The notes under the pieces are model-generated. The model saw only the letters and a list, made by a program, of their open reading frames with translations, was not told where the DNA came from and searched no databases. The translations under genes were made by a program, and so were the position numbers. Shown in pieces: positions 32,045-56,003 of a stretch of DNA of 64,000 bases. The first letter of the stretch is position 1. The number at the start of each line of letters is the position of its first letter. This DNA is from Oscillospiraceae bacterium (lineage in GTDB: Bacteria; Bacillota; Clostridia; Oscillospirales; Oscillospiraceae): the NCBI GenBank assembly GCA_022793685.1, contig JAAWDI010000011.1, positions 62,001-126,000 on the forward strand. Direction: 5' to 3'.

Positions 32045-33001
32045 TCACCCCTTTTCTTCCTGTTCCTGCCGCATCCTGCGGCGCAGCCGCTCCATGCTGG
32101 CCTTGGCCCGCTCGTCCTGCTCCGGACGGGGCGCTTTCCCGGGGGCCATGCCCGCCGCGCCGCCGGAAGTCCGCCGGGGGCCGTCCCCCGCCTGAATGGC
32201 CGCCACCGTGTGGAGGCCCTTGGCGTGCCAGTTTTTCAGGATAGAGTTCATGTAGGCCCAGTTGAGGGTCTGCTTTTTCAGCACCGTTTTCTCATAGGCA
32301 AGCCGGATAGCTGCGTCTTCAAAGCCCATGGAGTCCCACGCCTCTAAATAGGCCTGCTCCTTTTCCACAGGCGGGCGGGGAGGCAAATCCAGCAGGCGGA
32401 AAAGCTCCTTCTGGCGCTTGTTCATCTCGCTGCGCCGACGAACATAGCCATCCGCCGCCTCCGCCGTGTCCACGCCCAGCCGCCGCCAGAGAAAGGCCTC
32501 CTTCCGGATTTGGGACATGCGGGGCTTTCTGCCCGCGCCGTACTTGCGCTCTGTCTCCTCCACACACCAATTCACCAGCAGCAACACCACCTCGGCGGGC
32601 AGCGCCAGATGGTCGTACACCGTCAGCAGCGCCTTCAAGTCGGCCACCGTCAGCTTGCGGCCCAGCCGCCGCTCCACCTCCGCCGCCAGATGGGGAAACG
32701 CGCCGCCGTTCTCCAGCTCCTGCCGGAGGTCGTCGGCGGTGTAGTCGGGGGGAAGGGCTTCGCCGCTCTGCTCCGGCGCGCTGAGGGGGGCGGTCTCCGC
32801 CTCCTTGGTTACAAGTCCAAGCTCCGCCAGCACAGAGCGGGCTGCGGCCAGGCGGGCCTCCGGCCATTTCCCCACGGGGAAGGAGCCGCGACGCAGAAGA
32901 TGCAGATATAAAAGCGCCGCATCGCCGTCGCCCTTTTGCAGCAGGCGGTCGGCCGCGCCGCTTGTCATGGACAGAATGCCGTCTGGGATATAGTCGGCCA
33001 T
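32045..33001 (-). CDS. DnaD-domain replication initiation protein
   Basis: 318 residues. N-terminal winged-helix-like part, linker, then a DnaD/DnaB-type domain ending in the helix with YMNSILKNWHAKG, close to the YxxxIxxxW signature used for DNA binding, and a charged tail. It acts in primosome assembly with DnaC/DnaI. Start at ATG 32999-33001 with AAGGCGG upstream; a TTG 21 nt earlier is less likely. First gene of the long minus-strand run to divIVA. Confidence 0.9.
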   Translation of the reverse strand: MADYIPDGILSMTSGAADRLLQKGDGDAALLYLHLLRRGSFPVGKWPEARLAAARSVLAELGLVTKEAETAPLSAPEQSGEALPPDYTADDLRQELENGGAFPHLAAEVERRLGRKLTVADLKALLTVYDHLALPAEVVLLLVNWCVEETERKYGAGRKPRMSQIRKEAFLWRRLGVDTAEAADGYVRRRSEMNKRQKELFRLLDLPPRPPVEKEQAYLEAWDSMGFEDAAIRLAYEKTVLKKQTLNWAYMNSILKNWHAKGLHTVAAIQAGDGPRRTSGGAAGMAPGKAPRPEQDERAKASMERLRRRMRQEQEEKG

Positions 33002-47276: not shown

Positions 47277-49373
47277 TCATTTTCTGCGGAAAGGCCAGAA
47301 GCCCCGGCGCTTCGGCGGCTCCTCGCCGCCGTCCGCATCCTCCGTAGCAGGGGCTGCGGGCGCTTTTTTCTCCGGTGCTGTCGGCGCAGCGCCGCCGCCC
47401 TGAAGGTTTTTCAGCAGCTTTTTGGAGTCCTCGTCGCCCGCTTCAATGGCTTTCTCGTACCACTCCCTGGCCTTTTCCTTGTCCGGCGTGGTTCCCACGC
47501 CGTTTTCATAGCATTTGCCCAAGTTCCGCATCCCGTGCCGCCGTCCGTCCCGTGCAGAGAGGGTATAAAGCTCAAAGGCGCGCGCCTCGTCCTTTTGTAC
47601 GCCCTTGCCCGTGCGGTACAGGTCGGCCAGATTGTTGCGGGCGTCGCCGTCCCCTTGGTCGGCGGCCAACTGGTAAAGCCGTGCCGCCTCCGCAAAATCC
47701 TGCTTCACGCCCCGGCCTGCGGCATAGCACAGCGCCAGATTATACTGCGCCCGACAGTGTCCCTGCTCCGCAGATTTGGTGTACCATTCCACCGCCTTCC
47801 GCTCGTCCTTGGGAACGCCTTTTCCTGCCTCATAGCACCAGGCCAAATTACACTGGGCGCGGGGGTAACCCTGCTCGGCCGATTTGCGGTACCACGCGGT
47901 GGCCTCTTCCCAGCTCTGCTCCACGCCCCGGCCCGCCTCATAGCACCATCCCAGGTTGCACATGGCTGCCCTGTCTCCGCCGTCGGCCCCCTTGCGGTAA
48001 AGCTCCGTTGCCTTTTCATAGTTCTTTTCTACGCCATCGCCGTTTTCATAGCATACGCCCAGATTGCACAGGGCGGGCGGATAACCTGCGTCCGCCGCCT
48101 TCTGGTACCAGCGGGCAGCCTCGCCCTTATCCCTGGGAACGCCCATCCCCCGGCTGTAGCAGTTGGCCAGACAGTGGTAGGCGGGAACATACTCCTGCTC
48201 CGCCGCTTGCCGGTACAGCTCGATGGCCTTCTCCGGGTCGCGGGTCACGCCCTCGCCGTGCTCATAGCAAACGCCCAGGTTGTTCAGGCCGCGGGGGTAT
48301 CCCTGGTCGGCGCTGCGGCGGTACCAGTCAGCGGCCTCCGCCCAGCTTTGGGGCGTGCCTTGGCCGGCCTCACAGCACCAGCCCAAATTACACTGGGCGC
48401 GGGCATGGCCCTGTTCCGCCGCTTTGCGGTACCAGCGCACCGCCTCCTCCCAGCTCTGGGGCGTACCCCGTCCTGTCTCACAGCAAAAGCCCAGATTGCA
48501 CTGGGCGGTAGCGTCGCCCATTTCAGCGCCCTTGTGGTAGTAGAATACCGCTTTTTCCAGGTCAGACTCCACACCGTGGCCGTGCTCATAGCAAACGCCG
48601 AGATTGCAGAAGGCGGGGGGATAGCCCGCGTCCACCGCCTTTTGATACCATTCCACTGCGGCCTTTCTGTCCTGCTCTGCACCGATGCCCTGGCCCAAGC
48701 AGTTGGCCAGGCAATGGCAGGCGGGGGGATGGCCGGACTCCGCCGCCAGGCGGTACCAGTGGACGGCCGCCGCCTTATCCTGCTCAATGCCGATGCCGAA
48801 CTCACAGCAGCGGCCCAAGTCGGTCTGGGCAGGGGCGTACCCCAGCCAAGAGGCGGACTGGTACCACTGGGCGGCTATCCCCTCGTTTCGGGGGACGATG
48901 CGGCCCACCTCGTAAAACTCGCCCAGAAGGTGCTGCGCCCGCGGGACGCCGCCCTCTGCGGCGGTACGGATGCACTCCACCGCGCCGGTCTCGTCCTTTT
49001 CCACGCCGATACCGTTGAGGAAGCACACGCCCAGATTGCACAGGGCGGGGTGGTAGCCCAAATCGGCGGCCTTGCGGTAATAATACACCGCCTGCTTCGG
49101 GTCCTCCGGCACCCCCCGGCCCGCCTCATAGCACCAGCCGATGTTGGTGATGGCCCAACCGTCCTCCAGCTCCTCGCCCCGGTGGAACCGCTCCAGCGCC
49201 AGAGCGTCCTCGCCCCGGTCAAGGGCCATGTTGCCCAGCACCGTCCATTCGCTGCCGCCCAGGTCTTCCTCCTGCACCGGCATGAGCATGGCCCCGCACT
49301 TGGGGCAGTCGTCCTGCTCTCCGCTGTCGGTCAAAAAGCCGCAATCCGCATTTTCGCAGCGGTAATATTCCAT
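47277..49373 (-). CDS. Sel1-repeat protein with N-terminal zinc ribbon
   Basis: 698 residues. Residues 1-30 form a zinc-ribbon (CENADC...CPKC). From about residue 70 there are sixteen consecutive Sel1-like repeats of 36 residues (pattern NLGxCYExGxGVxxDxxKAxxWYxKAAxxG), then a linker rich in Ala and Pro and a basic end (RRGFWPFRRK). Sel1 solenoids mediate protein-protein contacts. No signal peptide. The partner is unknown. Preceded by a consensus promoter. Confidence 0.92.
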   Translation of the reverse strand: MEYYRCENADCGFLTDSGEQDDCPKCGAMLMPVQEEDLGGSEWTVLGNMALDRGEDALALERFHRGEELEDGWAITNIGWCYEAGRGVPEDPKQAVYYYRKAADLGYHPALCNLGVCFLNGIGVEKDETGAVECIRTAAEGGVPRAQHLLGEFYEVGRIVPRNEGIAAQWYQSASWLGYAPAQTDLGRCCEFGIGIEQDKAAAVHWYRLAAESGHPPACHCLANCLGQGIGAEQDRKAAVEWYQKAVDAGYPPAFCNLGVCYEHGHGVESDLEKAVFYYHKGAEMGDATAQCNLGFCCETGRGTPQSWEEAVRWYRKAAEQGHARAQCNLGWCCEAGQGTPQSWAEAADWYRRSADQGYPRGLNNLGVCYEHGEGVTRDPEKAIELYRQAAEQEYVPAYHCLANCYSRGMGVPRDKGEAARWYQKAADAGYPPALCNLGVCYENGDGVEKNYEKATELYRKGADGGDRAAMCNLGWCYEAGRGVEQSWEEATAWYRKSAEQGYPRAQCNLAWCYEAGKGVPKDERKAVEWYTKSAEQGHCRAQYNLALCYAAGRGVKQDFAEAARLYQLAADQGDGDARNNLADLYRTGKGVQKDEARAFELYTLSARDGRRHGMRNLGKCYENGVGTTPDKEKAREWYEKAIEAGDEDSKKLLKNLQGGGAAPTAPEKKAPAAPATEDADGGEEPPKRRGFWPFRRK

Positions 49374-49503: not shown

Positions 49504-50337
49504 TCAGGTCTTTTTTCGTTTTTTCTGGAGCTGAAGGTTGCGCTCGATGGGTTTCGGCCCCCGCCAGGTAAACGCCCGTTCCGCATACTTTTCTCGAAAG
49601 GCCTTGCCCGACAGGCCGGACACGTCCTCCTCCTCCAGCCGCCGCAGGAGGTCTTGCCGGAATTCCGGCAGGGCTGTTTCCACCGCCTCCCGATTGTAGG
49701 GGCACACCGCCTGACAGCGGTCACACCCCCAAATCAGGTCATGCTCCGCCACCGCGGCGGATTCCCATCCGTTGAGGGGGTCTTTCTTTTGCGTCAGGTA
49801 AGAGAGGCATACCGTAAAATCTCCTCGGCGTAAAGCCCCGGTCGGGCAGGCCTTCACGCACGCGCCGCAGCCAACGCAGCTTGGCGCAGGGTGGCTGTCT
49901 GTTTTCAGAGGCAAATCGGTGAGAATTGCGCCCAGAAAGACCCAAGAGCCATAGGGCGGCACGATGACCATGTTGTTTCGCCCCGCCAGGCCGATGCCCG
50001 CCAGCCGGGCCGCCGGCCGTTCCGGTACAGGGGAGTTGTCCGCCAGCGCCATAAAGCGGTATTCCGGACGCTCTTCCCGAAGCGCGTCGCACACCGCCTC
50101 CAGCCGCCGGGTGACGGCAAGATGGTAGTCCCGCCCCCAGGCATAGTGGGAGAGGTTGCCGCTGCCCTCCTCCGTATAATAGGGAAACGCGGCTATAAAA
50201 ACCCCTCCGGGCGCAGCGCCTAACAGCTCTGTCGCCCTGCCCTGCGCTGCGCCCGTCATGCACGGTTTCAGGTCGTCGTAATTCACCTGTCCCCACGCGG
50301 CGGCTCCTGCCGCTGTGAACAGCTTATCTATTTCCAT
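49504..50337 (-). CDS. QueG-like epoxyqueuosine reductase, short form
   Basis: 277 residues. N-terminal cobalamin-binding-type domain with the catalytic-Asp region ADNSPVPERPAARLAG and GRNNMVIVP, then two 4Fe-4S motifs (CVGCGACVKACPTGAL and CDRCQAVCP). Full-length QueG proteins are about 380 residues because of a HEAT-like C-terminus that is absent here. QueG reduces epoxyqueuosine to queuosine in tRNA with cobalamin; a different reductase role is possible for the short form. It overlaps the end of the MurE-ArgB gene by 10 nt, so it belongs to that operon. Confidence 0.83.
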   Translation of the reverse strand: MEIDKLFTAAGAAAWGQVNYDDLKPCMTGAAQGRATELLGAAPGGVFIAAFPYYTEEGSGNLSHYAWGRDYHLAVTRRLEAVCDALREERPEYRFMALADNSPVPERPAARLAGIGLAGRNNMVIVPPYGSWVFLGAILTDLPLKTDSHPAPSCVGCGACVKACPTGALRRGDFTVCLSYLTQKKDPLNGWESAAVAEHDLIWGCDRCQAVCPYNREAVETALPEFRQDLLRRLEEEDVSGLSGKAFREKYAERAFTWRGPKPIERNLQLQKKRKKT

Positions 50338-52748
50338 GCGTTTTCAGTTCCCTCGGTTTTACCGCCTACAATGGCAGTTCCGATGCTCTTGGGGGAGACG
50401 GCCTCCAACAGCAGGGCGTGCTCCACCCTGCCGTCCAGCACCACCACGCGATGAACACCCGCCTCCACCGCAGACAGGGCAGAGGTCACCTTGGGCGCCA
50501 TACCGCCGGCAATCAGGCCGCTTTGCAAAAGCTCGGCAGCCCGTTTGGCGTCCATCTCATGGATGAGGGTGCTGCGGTTGTGGCTGTCCACCAAAATGCC
50601 GTCCACATCGGTGAGGTAGAGGAGCTTTTCCGCCTTCAGCGCACAGGCCACCGCCAGCGCCGCGTCGTCGGCGTTCACATTATAGGCCATGCCGTCCTCT
50701 CCCTGCGCCACCGGAGACACCACCGGCACAAAGCCGCCGGAAAGCAGGCATTGCAGCAGGGCGGGGTCTGTGCGCTTCAACTCGCCCACCTGTCCCAGCG
50801 CGGGGTCCTTCGCCGCCGCCGTAAACAGTCCGCCGCTTCGGCCGGACACGCCCACCGCAGGCGCGCCCAGCGCCCGCAGCGCGCCGGTCAGGGCCTGGTT
50901 CACCCCGCCGGAGAGGGCGTATTCCACCGCTTTCATATCACCCGCATTGGTCACACGGTAGCCGTTTTGGAAAACGCTCTTTCGGCCCAGCCGGTCTAAC
51001 AGAGCGGTGATGGCCTTTCCGCCGCCGTGGACGACCACCACCCGCACCCCCGCCATATGGAGGGCGGCAATGTCCTGCAAAATGGACTCCTCCGCCGCGC
51101 CGGGAGTGAGGGCGCTGCCGCCATACTTCACCACCACGGTTTTGCCGGACAGGGCGTTCAGCCGAGGGAGGGTATCCAACAGGCCGCGAACCTTATCCAT
51201 GCCGTCCAGGCCGTGGAGCTTGTCGTACTCCAACAGGGCGGCCTTGGTGTATTCCACATCGGAGGGGCAGTCGATATAGGCGGTGCCCCGCTTCTGGCGG
51301 GTTTCTGCCCCTTTGCCGGTGATGAGGAGGATGGTGGGCTGCTCACTGCTCAATACAGCGCTGCGGATGGCCTCGCCCCGGTCGGGCTGGATGGAATACT
51401 CGCACCCCGCCCGCTCCACGTGGGAGGCCACCTCCTTGCAGATGTCCAGCACGTCCTCTTCGCCAGGGTCTTCTTCGGTGACGATGACCAAATCGGAGTG
51501 CGCCCCCGATATTTCGCCCAAATCCTTGCGGCGGTCAAGCGCCTTTTTGCCCGGACAGCCGAACACGGTGACGATGCGTCGGCCGGGGTATTCCTCCTCT
51601 ACCGAAGCATACAGCTTCTGGAAGGAAAGGCGGTTGTGGGCGTAATCCACGATAGCCACCACATGGTCGTTGGCGTTGGCGTAAACCTCCATGCGGCCGG
51701 GCACACGGGCCTTTTGCAGACCCAGATACACCGCATGCTCCGGAATGCCCAGCGCCTCGCACACCGCAATGGCGGCCAAGGCGTTCTGCACATTAAACAG
51801 TCCCGGCATAGTCAGCCGGAAGGTACGGGAAAAGCGGGGGGTCTTGACCTTGAAAAGGATGTCGCCCCCCTCCTTGCGTACGCCGCTGGCGTACACCGTC
51901 GCGCCGCTGTCATGCTGAGAGAAGGTGATAACCCGTCCGGCGTGCTCGGCGGCGGACAGCACCCGCTTGCTTTCGTCGCTGTCCAGATTGACGCAGGCCA
52001 CCTTGCACTGCTCAAAAATCCTCAGCTTGGAGGAGAAGTAGTCCTCAAAATCCGGATGTTCGATGGGGGAGATGTGGTCATAGCCAATATTCAAAAAACA
52101 GGCCACGGCGAACTCCACGCCCAGCACCCGGTCGTACTTTAACGCCTGACTGCTGACCTCCATGGTCAGCAGGGGAATGCCGCTTTCCAGCGCATGGGCG
52201 AAATGGCGCTCCAGCTCCAGCGGCTCCGGCGTGGTAAGGTGGCTTTCAAAACGCTCCACACCGTCATAGGTGTCGATGGATGAGATGACGGCGCTCTCCT
52301 TGCCGCTCTGGGCCAGCACCTCGTCAAAAATATACTTGAGGTAATACGCGGTGGACGACTTGCCTTTGGTGCCCGTGATGCCCACCACGTCCAGCGTGCC
52401 GCTGGGGTGGCCATAGAAAGCGTCCGCCAGCAGAGCCATAGCCCGGCGCACGTCGTTCACCAGCAGCGCAGGAATGGCCGCTCCCTCCGGGAAGGGCTGC
52501 TCCGCCACATAAAGGATGGCGCCCTTCTCCACCGCCTGCGCCAGATAAGCGCCCTTGAAATGGGCCCCCTTGCAGAGAAACAGGGTGTCCTCCACCACCT
52601 CCTGCGAGTCGCAGGATACCAGCGCCACCGGCTTGGAAAGGAGCGCTGCGGGCAGAGGGGCCGCCCCGTTTTGCAGCAGACCCTCCCGCTGCAAAAGCTG
52701 CACATAATCGCCCACCGGGCGGAGGGTGCGCTTGTTCATGTCATCCAC
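50328..52748 (-). CDS. Fusion of MurE-type Mur ligase and ArgB-type acetylglutamate kinase
   Basis: 806 residues in one uninterrupted frame. Residues about 1-505 are a MurE-like ligase: P-loop GTKGKS (126-131), TTPEP, MEVSSQAL, carbamoylated-Lys position 241 (DYFSSK), VPGRMEV, IVDYAHN and GKGAETRQK. The pattern (EHPDFEDYF, RRKDLG) resembles the streptococcal lysine-adding MurE; the DNPR motif of DAP-adding enzymes is replaced by EEDPG (425-429). Residues about 520-800 are a full amino-acid kinase: KYGGSAL, VVHGGGKA, NGYRVT, SGRSGG, LTDVDGIL, IAGGMAPKV, as in N-acetylglutamate kinase. Two neighbouring ATGs could start it. It lies 16 bp after the racemase gene. I infer synthesis of a peptide with a diamino acid; function unproven. 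Confidence 0.9.
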   Translation of the reverse strand: MDDMNKRTLRPVGDYVQLLQREGLLQNGAAPLPAALLSKPVALVSCDSQEVVEDTLFLCKGAHFKGAYLAQAVEKGAILYVAEQPFPEGAAIPALLVNDVRRAMALLADAFYGHPSGTLDVVGITGTKGKSSTAYYLKYIFDEVLAQSGKESAVISSIDTYDGVERFESHLTTPEPLELERHFAHALESGIPLLTMEVSSQALKYDRVLGVEFAVACFLNIGYDHISPIEHPDFEDYFSSKLRIFEQCKVACVNLDSDESKRVLSAAEHAGRVITFSQHDSGATVYASGVRKEGGDILFKVKTPRFSRTFRLTMPGLFNVQNALAAIAVCEALGIPEHAVYLGLQKARVPGRMEVYANANDHVVAIVDYAHNRLSFQKLYASVEEEYPGRRIVTVFGCPGKKALDRRKDLGEISGAHSDLVIVTEEDPGEEDVLDICKEVASHVERAGCEYSIQPDRGEAIRSAVLSSEQPTILLITGKGAETRQKRGTAYIDCPSDVEYTKAALLEYDKLHGLDGMDKVRGLLDTLPRLNALSGKTVVVKYGGSALTPGAAEESILQDIAALHMAGVRVVVVHGGGKAITALLDRLGRKSVFQNGYRVTNAGDMKAVEYALSGGVNQALTGALRALGAPAVGVSGRSGGLFTAAAKDPALGQVGELKRTDPALLQCLLSGGFVPVVSPVAQGEDGMAYNVNADDAALAVACALKAEKLLYLTDVDGILVDSHNRSTLIHEMDAKRAAELLQSGLIAGGMAPKVTSALSAVEAGVHRVVVLDGRVEHALLLEAVSPKSIGTAIVGGKTEGTENAWK

Positions 52749-52764: not shown

Positions 52765-53490
52765 TTAAACGTTGCGCAGCTTCTTGCCGCAGCTTAAAAT
52801 GGCCCGCTCCACCAGCACCTCCATGGCGTCCAGATAGAAATCGGGCAGGTCGTGATACTGGCGGTACACCGACAGCTCTGTGCACGCCAGTATGGCGCAG
52901 TCGCATCCGGCGGCGCGCACCCAGCGGTCAATCTGGGCGAATTTTTCCCGACTTCCCTGTTCGCCCTTCTTAATTTCATTGTAAATGATATGCATCACCA
53001 GACGTTGTTCTGCCTCGCCGGGGACGGCGCAGGCCATGCCCAGCTTTTCGCACTCCTGCTGATACAGCCCCGCCTGCACCGTGCCGTCGGTGGCCAATAC
53101 GCAGGGCTTTTTCAGCCCGCGTGCGTGGACGGTCCGCACGGTTTCCCGCACCATATGGAGAATGGGAATGGTCAGCTTTTCCTGAAGCCTGTCCACAAAG
53201 TAGTGGGAGGTGTTGCACGGAATGGCAATCACCCTGCAGCCGCAGGTTTCCAGCATCTGGGCGTCGTGGAGCATCCGGTTGAAGACGCCGTCCCCCTTGC
53301 CGGAGAGAATGGCCTCCGTCCGGTCGGGCATTTCGGTGTCGCTGAGGATGAGGGTGGGCAAATGGTCTTGGTCCCGCTCTGCCTCCGTCCGGTCCAGAAT
53401 GCGCTGGTAAAACACCTGTGTGGCTTGGGGCCCCATGCCGCCCAAGATGCCAAGCTGGGGCCGGAAGTCGGGCAGCTTTGTCTGCTCCAT
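52765..53490 (-). CDS. Aspartate/glutamate racemase
   Basis: 241 residues. PLP-independent racemase with both catalytic cysteines: Cys92 in IPCNTSHYF and Cys203 in LACTELSV; N-terminal GILGGMGPQATQVFYQ is the family signature and is closer to aspartate racemases than to MurI. It likely supplies D-Asp or D-Glu to the adjoining ATP-grasp ligase. ATG with AAAGGAGGG upstream, 17 bp after the ATP-grasp gene. Confidence 0.9.
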   Translation of the reverse strand: MEQTKLPDFRPQLGILGGMGPQATQVFYQRILDRTEAERDQDHLPTLILSDTEMPDRTEAILSGKGDGVFNRMLHDAQMLETCGCRVIAIPCNTSHYFVDRLQEKLTIPILHMVRETVRTVHARGLKKPCVLATDGTVQAGLYQQECEKLGMACAVPGEAEQRLVMHIIYNEIKKGEQGSREKFAQIDRWVRAAGCDCAILACTELSVYRQYHDLPDFYLDAMEVLVERAILSCGKKLRNV

Positions 53491-53507
53491 GCCGCACCCT
53501 CCTTTTG

Positions 53508-54719
53508 TTATCTCTTTTTCTCGGCGTACTGCCTGAACAGCCCGTAATTGCGCCAGTGGTTCTTCCAAATGCGCAGGCGGTGGCTGAAACTCTTATCCTG
53601 CGGGCAGAACAGGGGGTTGTTCACCGCCCCGGCGTGAAGCAGTTCCTTCATTTCCCCATGGTATTTGAGGTCGATGTAATCGAACGCCACCTTTTTGGGC
53701 ACCACCATGAACAGGCTCTTTTCCTTTGTGATAGTGAAGGGAAGCTCTTTCCCCTCTATCCAGTCCTCTACCAGCAGGCGGGCGATGTTATGACCCGCAC
53801 CGGTCACATAGTAATTGCTACGTCCCTGACGGCAGTTGACCTCAAAGAGCTTATACTTGCCGTCCCGCTCGTCATACTTCATGTCGATGTTGGAAAATCC
53901 CACATAGCCCACCGCCTCCAAAAAGGAGCGCAGGCGCTGGCAGACGGTCTCTTCATAGGTGGTCTGGATGACGGCATAGTTGCCCACGCCGTGAGGGTTA
54001 TGCTCCTCCAGCAGAACATGGCCCAGACACATGAGCTTCACCTTGCCGTCCTTGCCGGAATAGCTGGTCAGCACCCGCATATGGGTGTCGTCGCCCGGAA
54101 TGAATTCCTGCAAAATCATGTCGTCTGGGTAACCGGCGGCATAGATTTTGTGGAGCACCTCCAGCAGCTCCTCCCGGCTCTGGAGCACAAACCCCTTCCG
54201 GTTGCCCTCAAAGGGGTGCGCCCAATAGGCCACATCGTTGGCCGCCTTGCAGATGTAGGGCGGCTCAAAGGGCAGCTCGAAATCGTCCCCCATATCCGGC
54301 TTATAAATAAAGGTGGCAGGGTGTGGCAAACCGTACTGGTCGCACACCTCATAGAAGGACTCTTTGTTGCCCAAGGTGTTCATCAGCTCGCCGCTGATAT
54401 AGGGGGCGACCACATTGGGGGGAAGCTCCTCCCTATGCTCCGCCAAAATGCGGACATAGCTGTCGCCGCAGCCCATGGCAAGCACCGTTTTGTCCCTGTG
54501 GGCGGCGGCGTACTCCACCACCACGCCGCACAGCACTGCAGGGTTTTCGATGTCCTGCTTCACCTTATAGTCCACAATATCGCTGTCCGCACACACCGAG
54601 GCTCCGAATTTGCCATAGGCCACCGGACGAATCCCATAGCCCTCATAAAATGCGCGGGCTACGCTGTATACATTGATGTCGCCGCCGAATAACAGCGGCA
54701 GAAAGGCGGTCTCACCCAT
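53508..54719 (-). CDS. ATP-grasp ligase, D-aspartate ligase-like
   Basis: 403 residues. N-terminal LLFGGDINVYSVARAFYE, central ATP-grasp with FIPGDDTHMRVLTSYS and CLGHVLLEEH, and the metal-binding end FEVNCRQGRSNYYV. These match the COG3919-type ATP-grasp family that includes the enterococcal D-aspartate ligase, which adds D-Asp to the lysine side chain of peptidoglycan precursors. The adjacent racemase supports a D-acidic substrate. Overlaps the preceding small gene by 8 nt. Confidence 0.87.
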   Translation of the reverse strand: MGETAFLPLLFGGDINVYSVARAFYEGYGIRPVAYGKFGASVCADSDIVDYKVKQDIENPAVLCGVVVEYAAAHRDKTVLAMGCGDSYVRILAEHREELPPNVVAPYISGELMNTLGNKESFYEVCDQYGLPHPATFIYKPDMGDDFELPFEPPYICKAANDVAYWAHPFEGNRKGFVLQSREELLEVLHKIYAAGYPDDMILQEFIPGDDTHMRVLTSYSGKDGKVKLMCLGHVLLEEHNPHGVGNYAVIQTTYEETVCQRLRSFLEAVGYVGFSNIDMKYDERDGKYKLFEVNCRQGRSNYYVTGAGHNIARLLVEDWIEGKELPFTITKEKSLFMVVPKKVAFDYIDLKYHGEMKELLHAGAVNNPLFCPQDKSFSHRLRIWKNHWRNYGLFRQYAEKKR

Positions 54720-54944: not shown

Positions 54945-56003
54945 TTAGCGGTATACCCGTTTCAGTCCCCGCGCAAACATCGGCTCCAGCGGGAAGCGGG
55001 CCACATCGCCCACAGCACACTTCAGGTCGGTCACGTCCAGCAGGGTCTCGCGGGCGCCGGTGCAGATGACCTTGGCCTTGCCGCCGTTTACCAGCACCGT
55101 ATTCCTCCGGTCACCCAGCAGGCTGGACAGGAAGCCCTCCTCCTTCTCCGGTGACTCCACGCCAAAGCCGTTCTCGTATCCCACCGGAAGCAGCGCCACC
55201 CGAGTGGGCTTTTTCAGGGTCAAAGGCTTGCGCATTCCAATGGTGTGGCCCTTGGGCAGCCAGTTGATTTCGGACAGGGTGGCCTCGCCATAACCCACCT
55301 CGATGAGCTTGTCCCCCTTGCTGCGGCGGCAGCGGCCCATCAGCACCGAGCCTGCCCGCACCGCGTCCCGCCGGACAAAGTCATAGGTCAGCAGGGCGTA
55401 AGAGCCTGCAATGTGGATAGCGCCCGTCTCAAAGCCCTCTTGATGCGCCTGCTCCAGCACCGCTTCAAAGGCCTTGATGCGCTCCAGCGCCTGAGGGTTC
55501 GCCCCCTCCTGAAAATGCACCTGCGTATAGACGCCGCTCACCGCCACGTTGGGCATGGTGCGGAAGGCCATCATGATTTTTTCCGGTTCCTCCACCGGGA
55601 AACCACCGAAGCCGAGGCCTGTGTCAATCTGGATGTGGGCCTCTACAATGGTGGCGCGCTCCGCCGCAAGGGCGTTCAGGGCGGCCCCCGTCTCGGCAGA
55701 GCCGACAGAGCACACCGCGTTGCAGTCCACCAGCTGCTCCAGCTCTGTGCGGTCGGTGGTGGAGCGAAGCATCAAAATCTCCTCGTCCACAAAGCCCGCC
55801 CGCCGCAGGGCAGCCACGTCCTCCGGTTCGCTGACGGCAAAGCGGGCAATGCCCGCGTCCCTGCAAATGGTGGCCAGCTCCACAAGGCCGGCGCCCTGCC
55901 CGTCGCCGGAGAGCACGGCATAGATGACCGCCTGTCCGGCCCGCTCCCGCACCACGGCGATATTGTTCAAAACGGCTTGTTTCTCTATTACCAATGCTTT
56001 CAT
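54945..56003 (-). CDS. Alanine-racemase homologue lacking the PLP lysine
   Basis: 352 residues with the full two-domain Alr layout. The motif AVVKANAYGHG of true racemases reads AVLSGDGQGAG here, so the PLP lysine is Ser32. The Lys of HLKVDTGMGR is Gln (HIQIDTGLGF) and its Arg is lost too. The catalytic Tyr of the GYxxG motif (Tyr276, VGYENG) and Arg216 (AVRAGSV) remain. It is therefore unlikely to be a PLP racemase; a structural, binding or regulatory role is more probable. First gene of the operon, AAAAGGAGG upstream, own promoter. Confidence 0.85.
   Translation of the reverse strand: MKALVIEKQAVLNNIAVVRERAGQAVIYAVLSGDGQGAGLVELATICRDAGIARFAVSEPEDVAALRRAGFVDEEILMLRSTTDRTELEQLVDCNAVCSVGSAETGAALNALAAERATIVEAHIQIDTGLGFGGFPVEEPEKIMMAFRTMPNVAVSGVYTQVHFQEGANPQALERIKAFEAVLEQAHQEGFETGAIHIAGSYALLTYDFVRRDAVRAGSVLMGRCRRSKGDKLIEVGYGEATLSEINWLPKGHTIGMRKPLTLKKPTRVALLPVGYENGFGVESPEKEEGFLSSLLGDRRNTVLVNGGKAKVICTGARETLLDVTDLKCAVGDVARFPLEPMFARGLKRVYR

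Follow-up and report, generated by a model that had tools for sequence, protein, structure and literature searches.

The window analysed here, a stretch of 64,000 nucleotides from an Oscillospiraceae bacterium (assembly GCA_022793685.1, contig JAAWDI010000011.1, positions 62,001 to 126,000; the genome is 73% complete), carries on its minus strand a gene for an 806-residue protein (50328..52748; GTG start at 52748, stop at 50328, no internal stops) in which a MurE-type peptidoglycan ligase, called MurE2 below, is joined to an ArgB-type N-acetylglutamate kinase (NAGK). The first-pass annotation had reported this single frame from the sequence, and its coordinates proved correct. Each half scores above the curated cut-off of its family, the ligase part (residues 38-506; 51231..52637, minus strand) with 299.9 bits against TIGR01085 (cut-off: 257.3) and the kinase part including its N-terminal helix, or N-helix (residues 517-793; 50370..51200, minus strand), with 220.1 bits against TIGR00761 (cut-off: 151.3). 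Along the translated open reading frame the Pfam domains come in the order Mur_ligase_M, Mur_ligase_C, AA_kinase.

An AlphaFold2 model of the fusion, built from 36 sequences (the window and loci of relatives), has a mean predicted local distance difference test score (pLDDT) of 84.8, with the ligase and kinase domains both folded. By structure comparison (VIA-align), the ligase half matches MurE of M. tuberculosis (2wtz, Z 36.2) and S. aureus (4c12, Z 34.2), and the kinase half is closest to the hexameric NAGKs 2v5h, 2rd5 and 2bty (Z 38-40), with lower values against LysZ (Z 30.7) and E. coli NAGK (Z 30.4). In the model the junction is seamless: the final MurE helix (497-511) is followed within five residues by the NAGK N-helix (517-533), in keeping with the earlier statement that no stop or frameshift interrupts it. 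Separate translation of the kinase from an internal Met at its start (residue 517) is not a conserved feature, since no more than 31 of the 60 intact fusions have this Met.

A scan of relatives, using one genome per species, gave 80 loci (one search across these loci covered 50 of the 80), including 59 with the intact fusion, 1 cut by a contig end, 11 with an eroded kinase and 9 with the ligase alone. Hosts of the intact form include Intestinimonas, Evtepia, Pseudoflavonifractor (among them P. capillosus), Lawsonibacter and Clostridium viride, and in a class-wide sample the fusion was found in at least three family-level groups. As the same frame is intact in 59 of the 80 relatives, from independent assemblies, an assembly artefact was rejected, and the alternative that relatives keep the two domains as separate genes joined here by assembly fails as well. 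The MurE2-ArgB fusion is a genuine single protein. Like the MurE-MurF fusion (PDB 8f5d, NF008896 family), it joins MurE to a second enzyme; the partner there is the next Mur ligase, in place of the arginine-pathway amino-acid kinase found here. The open-access literature that we searched yielded no description of a MurE-NAGK fusion, so the earlier claim of novelty stands and the fusion is apparently undescribed.

A second MurE and a second ArgB

The host genome also encodes a DAP (diaminopimelate)-type MurE (L001, with an SDNPR motif) adjoining a penicillin-binding protein gene, a MurF adjoining a D-Ala-D-Ala ligase, and MurC; a standalone ArgB lies elsewhere than the fusion, inside an argJ-argB-argD operon. 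Because the host keeps both this DNPR-bearing MurE and this operon, the fusion is a second MurE plus a second ArgB. A MurE match was found in all 150 family genomes searched (above the cut-off in 149), and the possibility raised earlier, that a conventional murE is missing and the fusion replaces it, was rejected on these grounds. In 14 of the 150 genomes an ArgB match falls within an open frame of fusion size, and 13 of these also list a standalone ArgB above the cut-off (the exception is G025); ArgB occurs in about three quarters of the family genomes regardless of the fusion. At 12 loci (L037, L038, L041, L043, L044, L076, L078, L082, L083, L085, L087 and L088) a third Mur ligase of about 480 residues is encoded shortly downstream of MurE2, and those that were aligned carry the DNPR motif of the DAP type, so two MurEs of different specificity stand in one locus.

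In a kinase tree, all 25 sampled fused kinases form one clade (support 100/100), and the 46 standalone clostridial ArgB and two reference NAGKs all fall outside it; a recent duplication of the host's own argB was rejected for this reason. A quick MurE2 tree of 100 rows groups the 11 eroded forms in one clade and 9 kinase-free forms in a second, and each of these clades is nested among intact fusions; the remaining kinase-free rows fall outside the intact fusions, except for the long-branched L143, whose locus has an ATP-grasp gene, a racemase gene and MurE2 without the kinase. The simplest account would be that a cassette with these neighbouring genes (see below) existed first, that ArgB joined it once, and that the kinase was then eroded once and lost once or twice. 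The eroded copies, from 11 species of one clade (L068, L070-L075, L077, L080, L081 and L086), keep the N-helix and the C-terminal strands in frame, and their catalytic lysines, HGGG loop and NAD motif are gone; in several of these genomes there is a second standalone ArgB-like gene as well. Flintibacter muris is a species with the eroded form. Pairwise ratios of nonsynonymous to synonymous substitution rates (dN/dS) in the remnants are mostly below 1, and the remnants evolve at roughly double the rate of the MurE part. The intact kinase is under purifying selection about as strong as that on the MurE part (three sets of relatives; rough pairwise Nei-Gojobori estimates), which, together with the spread across at least three family-level groups, makes a chance fusion without function unlikely. 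These lineages offer a natural series for the gain, erosion and loss of a fused enzyme domain.

Residues of the ligase and kinase halves

In 36 aligned fusions the MurE half is invariant at T125-S131, T172-P174, S199-Q201, R207 and K241, which we take to be the P-loop, the motifs binding UDP-N-acetylmuramoyl (UDP-MurNAc)-dipeptide and the carbamylated lysine position of MurE. The half resembles MurE (TIGR01085) of the L-lysine- and L-ornithine-adding types in its fold, its P-loop (TGTKGKS), its TTP and SSQ..R motifs, the carbamylated-lysine position and an acidic side-chain pocket. Unlike the known lysine- or ornithine-adding enzymes, it is a second copy beside a DAP-type MurE, has EEDPGEE and GKGxETRQKRG motifs and carries a C-terminal kinase.

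S. aureus MurE holds the side chain of lysine with D406 and E460, and DAP enzymes carry the motif DNPR (PMC3829189). At the DNPR site the fusion has TEEDPGEE (residues 424-431; 51456..51479, minus strand), so that E426-D-P-G429 stands where the host's other MurE has DNPR. In the alignment E426 takes the place of D406, Gly429 that of the DAP-binding arginine of DNPR, and E482 that of E460, the last within GKGAETRQKRG (residues 478-488; 51285..51317, minus strand), a motif characteristic of this ligase group. Since the arginine is replaced by Gly429 and the two lysine-holding positions are taken by E426 and E482, meso-DAP is an unlikely substrate of MurE2. The E426 site is Asp in two lysine-type enzymes (E. 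faecalis and L. curvatus; TDDP) and Glu in MurE of Collinsella aerofaciens, which at 42% identity is nearest to the ligase half among named outside relatives and whose gene follows asnB. Unlike known lysine- or DAP-adding MurE, the fusion ligase passes neither equivalog cut-off: the L-lysine-adding profile NF010628 gives 352 bits (cut-off: 536) and the DAP-labelled profiles 354 bits (cut-off: 762), level with the lysine profile. The first-pass annotation had likened the ligase to lysine-adding streptococcal MurE; the resemblance and the non-DAP site hold, but the tie between the two profiles gives lysine no preference. By sequence, MurE2 may add either ornithine or lysine.

In the kinase half, K541, G543-544, HGGG 574-577, R598, N617, N690, N692, D694, D714, GGM 748-750 and K753 are invariant in the 60 intact fusions, covering the catalytic Lys, Asp and Gly residues and the N-acetylglutamate (NAG)-binding Arg and Asn residues of ArgB/NAGK; the earlier reading of a kinase with all acetylglutamate-kinase motifs is thus borne out. 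The half is 42% identical to the T. maritima and S. elongatus NAGK structures and scores clearly higher on the NAGK model than on LysW-type kinase models. It resembles the arginine-sensitive hexameric ArgB/NAGK (TIGR00761) in its full length, N-helix and catalytic residues, and differs from it in being fused to a ligase, outside any arg operon, in a separate clade and with arginine-site residues that are not conserved. In arginine-inhibitable NAGKs, arginine binds between the N-helix and the end of the C-lobe, and the N-helices form the hexamer (PMC3329491). The N-helix is present here (517-533 in the model), with its Leu-Pro invariant in 60 rows. The residues of the arginine site, placed by alignment and literature rather than from a ligand-bound structure, are the Tyr after Leu-Pro in the N-helix, H777, E782 and the Gly at 788, which are at least 97% conserved in 31 standalone ArgB and variable in the fusions. 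Given this variation at both ends of the site, it is a reasonable inference that the fused kinase lost arginine feedback.

Neighbouring genes and a putative D-aspartate branch

Directly upstream of the fusion and on the same strand lie a racemase gene and an ATP-grasp gene; the first-pass annotation was incomplete in missing these neighbours, the host's canonical ArgB encoded together with argJ/argD, and those lineages that have an eroded kinase or none. The racemase (52765..53568, minus strand), an Asp/Glu racemase of RacD-like type related to PDB 1jfl, has its true start probably at an internal ATG before EQTKLPDF. As it scores above the cut-offs of the aspartate-racemase model (TIGR00035) and of the cysteate-racemase model (CuyB), either amino acid could be its substrate. 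The ATP-grasp protein (53508..54719, minus strand) gave no match in a phmmer search against the PDB; it is 36-40% identical to ATP-grasp proteins of L. crispatus, L. curvatus and L. fermentum, of which the L. crispatus homologue adjoins asnB and the L. curvatus homologue directly follows an amino acid racemase gene. On the strength of this identity to Lactobacillus enzymes beside a racemase or AsnB, it is likely a D-aspartate (D-Asp) ligase of the AslA type. Across the 80 loci the ATP-grasp gene is found in 61, the racemase gene in at least 54 and an alanine-racemase-like gene in about 20.

L. lactis has racD and aslA in a single operon responsible for D-Asp production and for its attachment to the stem peptide, with AsnH as the amidating enzyme; in L. 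fermentum, position 3 of the stem peptide is ornithine (PMC4155827). The cluster resembles the racD-aslA cassette of lactic acid bacteria (AslA of L. lactis, Aslfm of E. faecium; PMC4155827) in that an Asp racemase adjoins an AslA-like ATP-grasp protein; it differs in having its own MurE, in cells that retain a DAP-type MurE, and in that no asnH is found among the recurrent neighbours of the fusion. Based on the ATP-grasp homologues beside racemase or asnB genes, the racD-aslA operon and the Collinsella MurE gene after asnB, a D-Asp-branch cassette is the best reading of the cluster, with its activities predicted. A literature search on murE2 with an aspartate racemase and on D-Asp in Oscillospiraceae walls gave nothing decisive, and the second, D-Asp-bridged peptidoglycan precursor that the cluster suggests for many gut Clostridia seems undescribed.

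The alanine-racemase-like protein (54945..56003, minus strand; identified by profile) has Ser in place of the lysine that binds pyridoxal phosphate (PLP), in the segment AVLSGDGQGAG. In relatives adjoining the fusion this position is Ser, Thr or Ala in 20 of 21, and Lys is kept only in L048. The protein has a conserved racemase fold and, judged from this position, should not bind PLP in the usual way.

A proposed second precursor route and its alternatives

We tentatively favour the explanation that the fusion joins an arginine-insensitive NAGK to the ligase of a second peptidoglycan-precursor route, D-Asp-branched and probably ornithine-based (or else lysine-based). The racemase would make D-Asp; the MurE part would extend UDP-MurNAc-L-Ala-D-Glu by a basic diamino acid, with L-ornithine the most likely choice and L-lysine the next; and the ATP-grasp ligase would add D-Asp to the side-chain amine of this diamino acid. 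We consider these three steps likely in outline, and the E426 that MurE2 has in common with the Collinsella MurE encoded after asnB was counted in favour of the explanation. The fused NAGK, lacking the arginine-feedback residues, would then keep supplying N-acetylglutamyl phosphate while the standalone ArgB is shut off by arginine, and the flow of ornithine to the cell wall would be secured. Ornithine together with this role of the kinase falls somewhat short of an even chance in our judgement. The N-helix of the kinase may also gather MurE into a ring.

Among genomes with the intact fusion, standalone ArgB and an ArgC-like protein are found in 30 of 30 and ArgJ in 24 of 24, and 3 of those 24 have no LysA or only a very weak match to it. 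This co-occurrence fits a kinase serving ornithine; the ornithine meaning proposed in the first-pass annotation is thus compatible with the data, though not shown by them.

In most fusion hosts the match of ArgC to TIGR01850 starts only at about position 57 and scores 135-180 bits, which suggests a divergent, type-2-like ArgC.

Several observations weigh against the ornithine-based route. The co-occurrence is phylogenetically confounded, as the genomes are related and partly incomplete and ArgB is common in the family anyway. The kinase-free L082 and L087 have MurE2 and LysA and no ArgB, ArgC or ArgJ, so the amino acid used there cannot come from the acetylated ornithine route, and the MurE2 motifs are unchanged after loss of the kinase. 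The literature searched held nothing decisive on the Collinsella peptidoglycan chemotype and no peptidoglycan chemistry of fusion-bearing species. Lastly, Y597 (beside the NAG-binding Arg; Leu in standalone ArgB), K578 and D695, all near the substrate site, are invariant only in the fused kinases, and could leave room for a substrate other than N-acetylglutamate.

The first alternative, which we regard as doubtful, is that MurE2 adds L-lysine for a precursor of the A4-alpha type (L-Lys-D-Asp), the type of peptidoglycan found in most lactobacilli, and that the kinase is an ordinary or regulatory NAGK with no direct metabolic link to the ligase. The lysine-ligase profile is among the top matches, the acidic pocket is like that of the TDDP enzymes, and LysA is present in most hosts, including both genomes without the arginine pathway. 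However, E426 is shared with Collinsella and not with the two lysine enzymes compared, 3 of 24 fusion genomes have no clear LysA, and a fusion without benefit would hardly persist intact and under selection across three families.

It is unlikely that the kinase serves mainly as a scaffold or sensor, its N-helix and C-lobe oligomerizing MurE2 or sensing a metabolite, with catalysis secondary. The hexamer-building role of N-helices in arginine-sensitive NAGKs (PMC3329491) would suit such a function, as would the in-frame retention of N-helix and C-terminal strands in the 11 eroded relatives with dN/dS mostly below 1; yet the catalytic and NAG-site residues are all invariant in the 60 intact fusions, the remnants evolve at about twice the rate of the MurE part, as decay predicts, and the domain is wholly lost in nine relatives.

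Quite improbable is a kinase that phosphorylates something other than N-acetylglutamate, such as a MurNAc-peptide of the same route or a different N-acyl amino acid. The fused-only residues, the separate clade and the standalone NAGK already in the host speak for it; against this, the NAGK score is above its curated cut-off and clearly above LysW-type models, the NAG-site Arg and both Asn are retained, the fold is closest to NAGKs, and some of the differing positions vary among known NAGKs too. A substrate shared by kinase and ligase is very improbable; in this reading a carboxylate on the UDP-MurNAc-peptide (or on its D-Asp branch) would be phosphorylated by the NAGK-like domain, giving an acyl-phosphate intermediate of peptidoglycan precursor synthesis for which we know of no pathway.

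If the favoured explanation of an arginine-insensitive NAGK in one protein with the ligase of a second precursor route is true, arginine-pathway control and cell-wall precursor synthesis would be tied in one polypeptide, and a group of common gut bacteria, for which the main murE predicts DAP peptidoglycan alone, could make in addition a D-Asp-branched precursor with ornithine or lysine. Both the muropeptides released and the hydrolases and immune receptors that see them would then differ.

Other features of the window include a 277-residue QueG-like 4Fe-4S protein that scores below the QueG cut-off (49504..50337, minus strand); the start of its gene overlaps the fusion stop by 10 bases, and it is not a conserved partner of the fusion in the relatives examined. 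The sole tRNA call by ARAGORN (32735-32829) has an anticodon of four bases (ctgc), is assigned to no amino acid and is probably spurious. At 47277-49373 a 698-residue protein has a zinc-ribbon-like start (C4C...CPKC) followed by many Sel1-type repeats, with only distant matches to repeat models.

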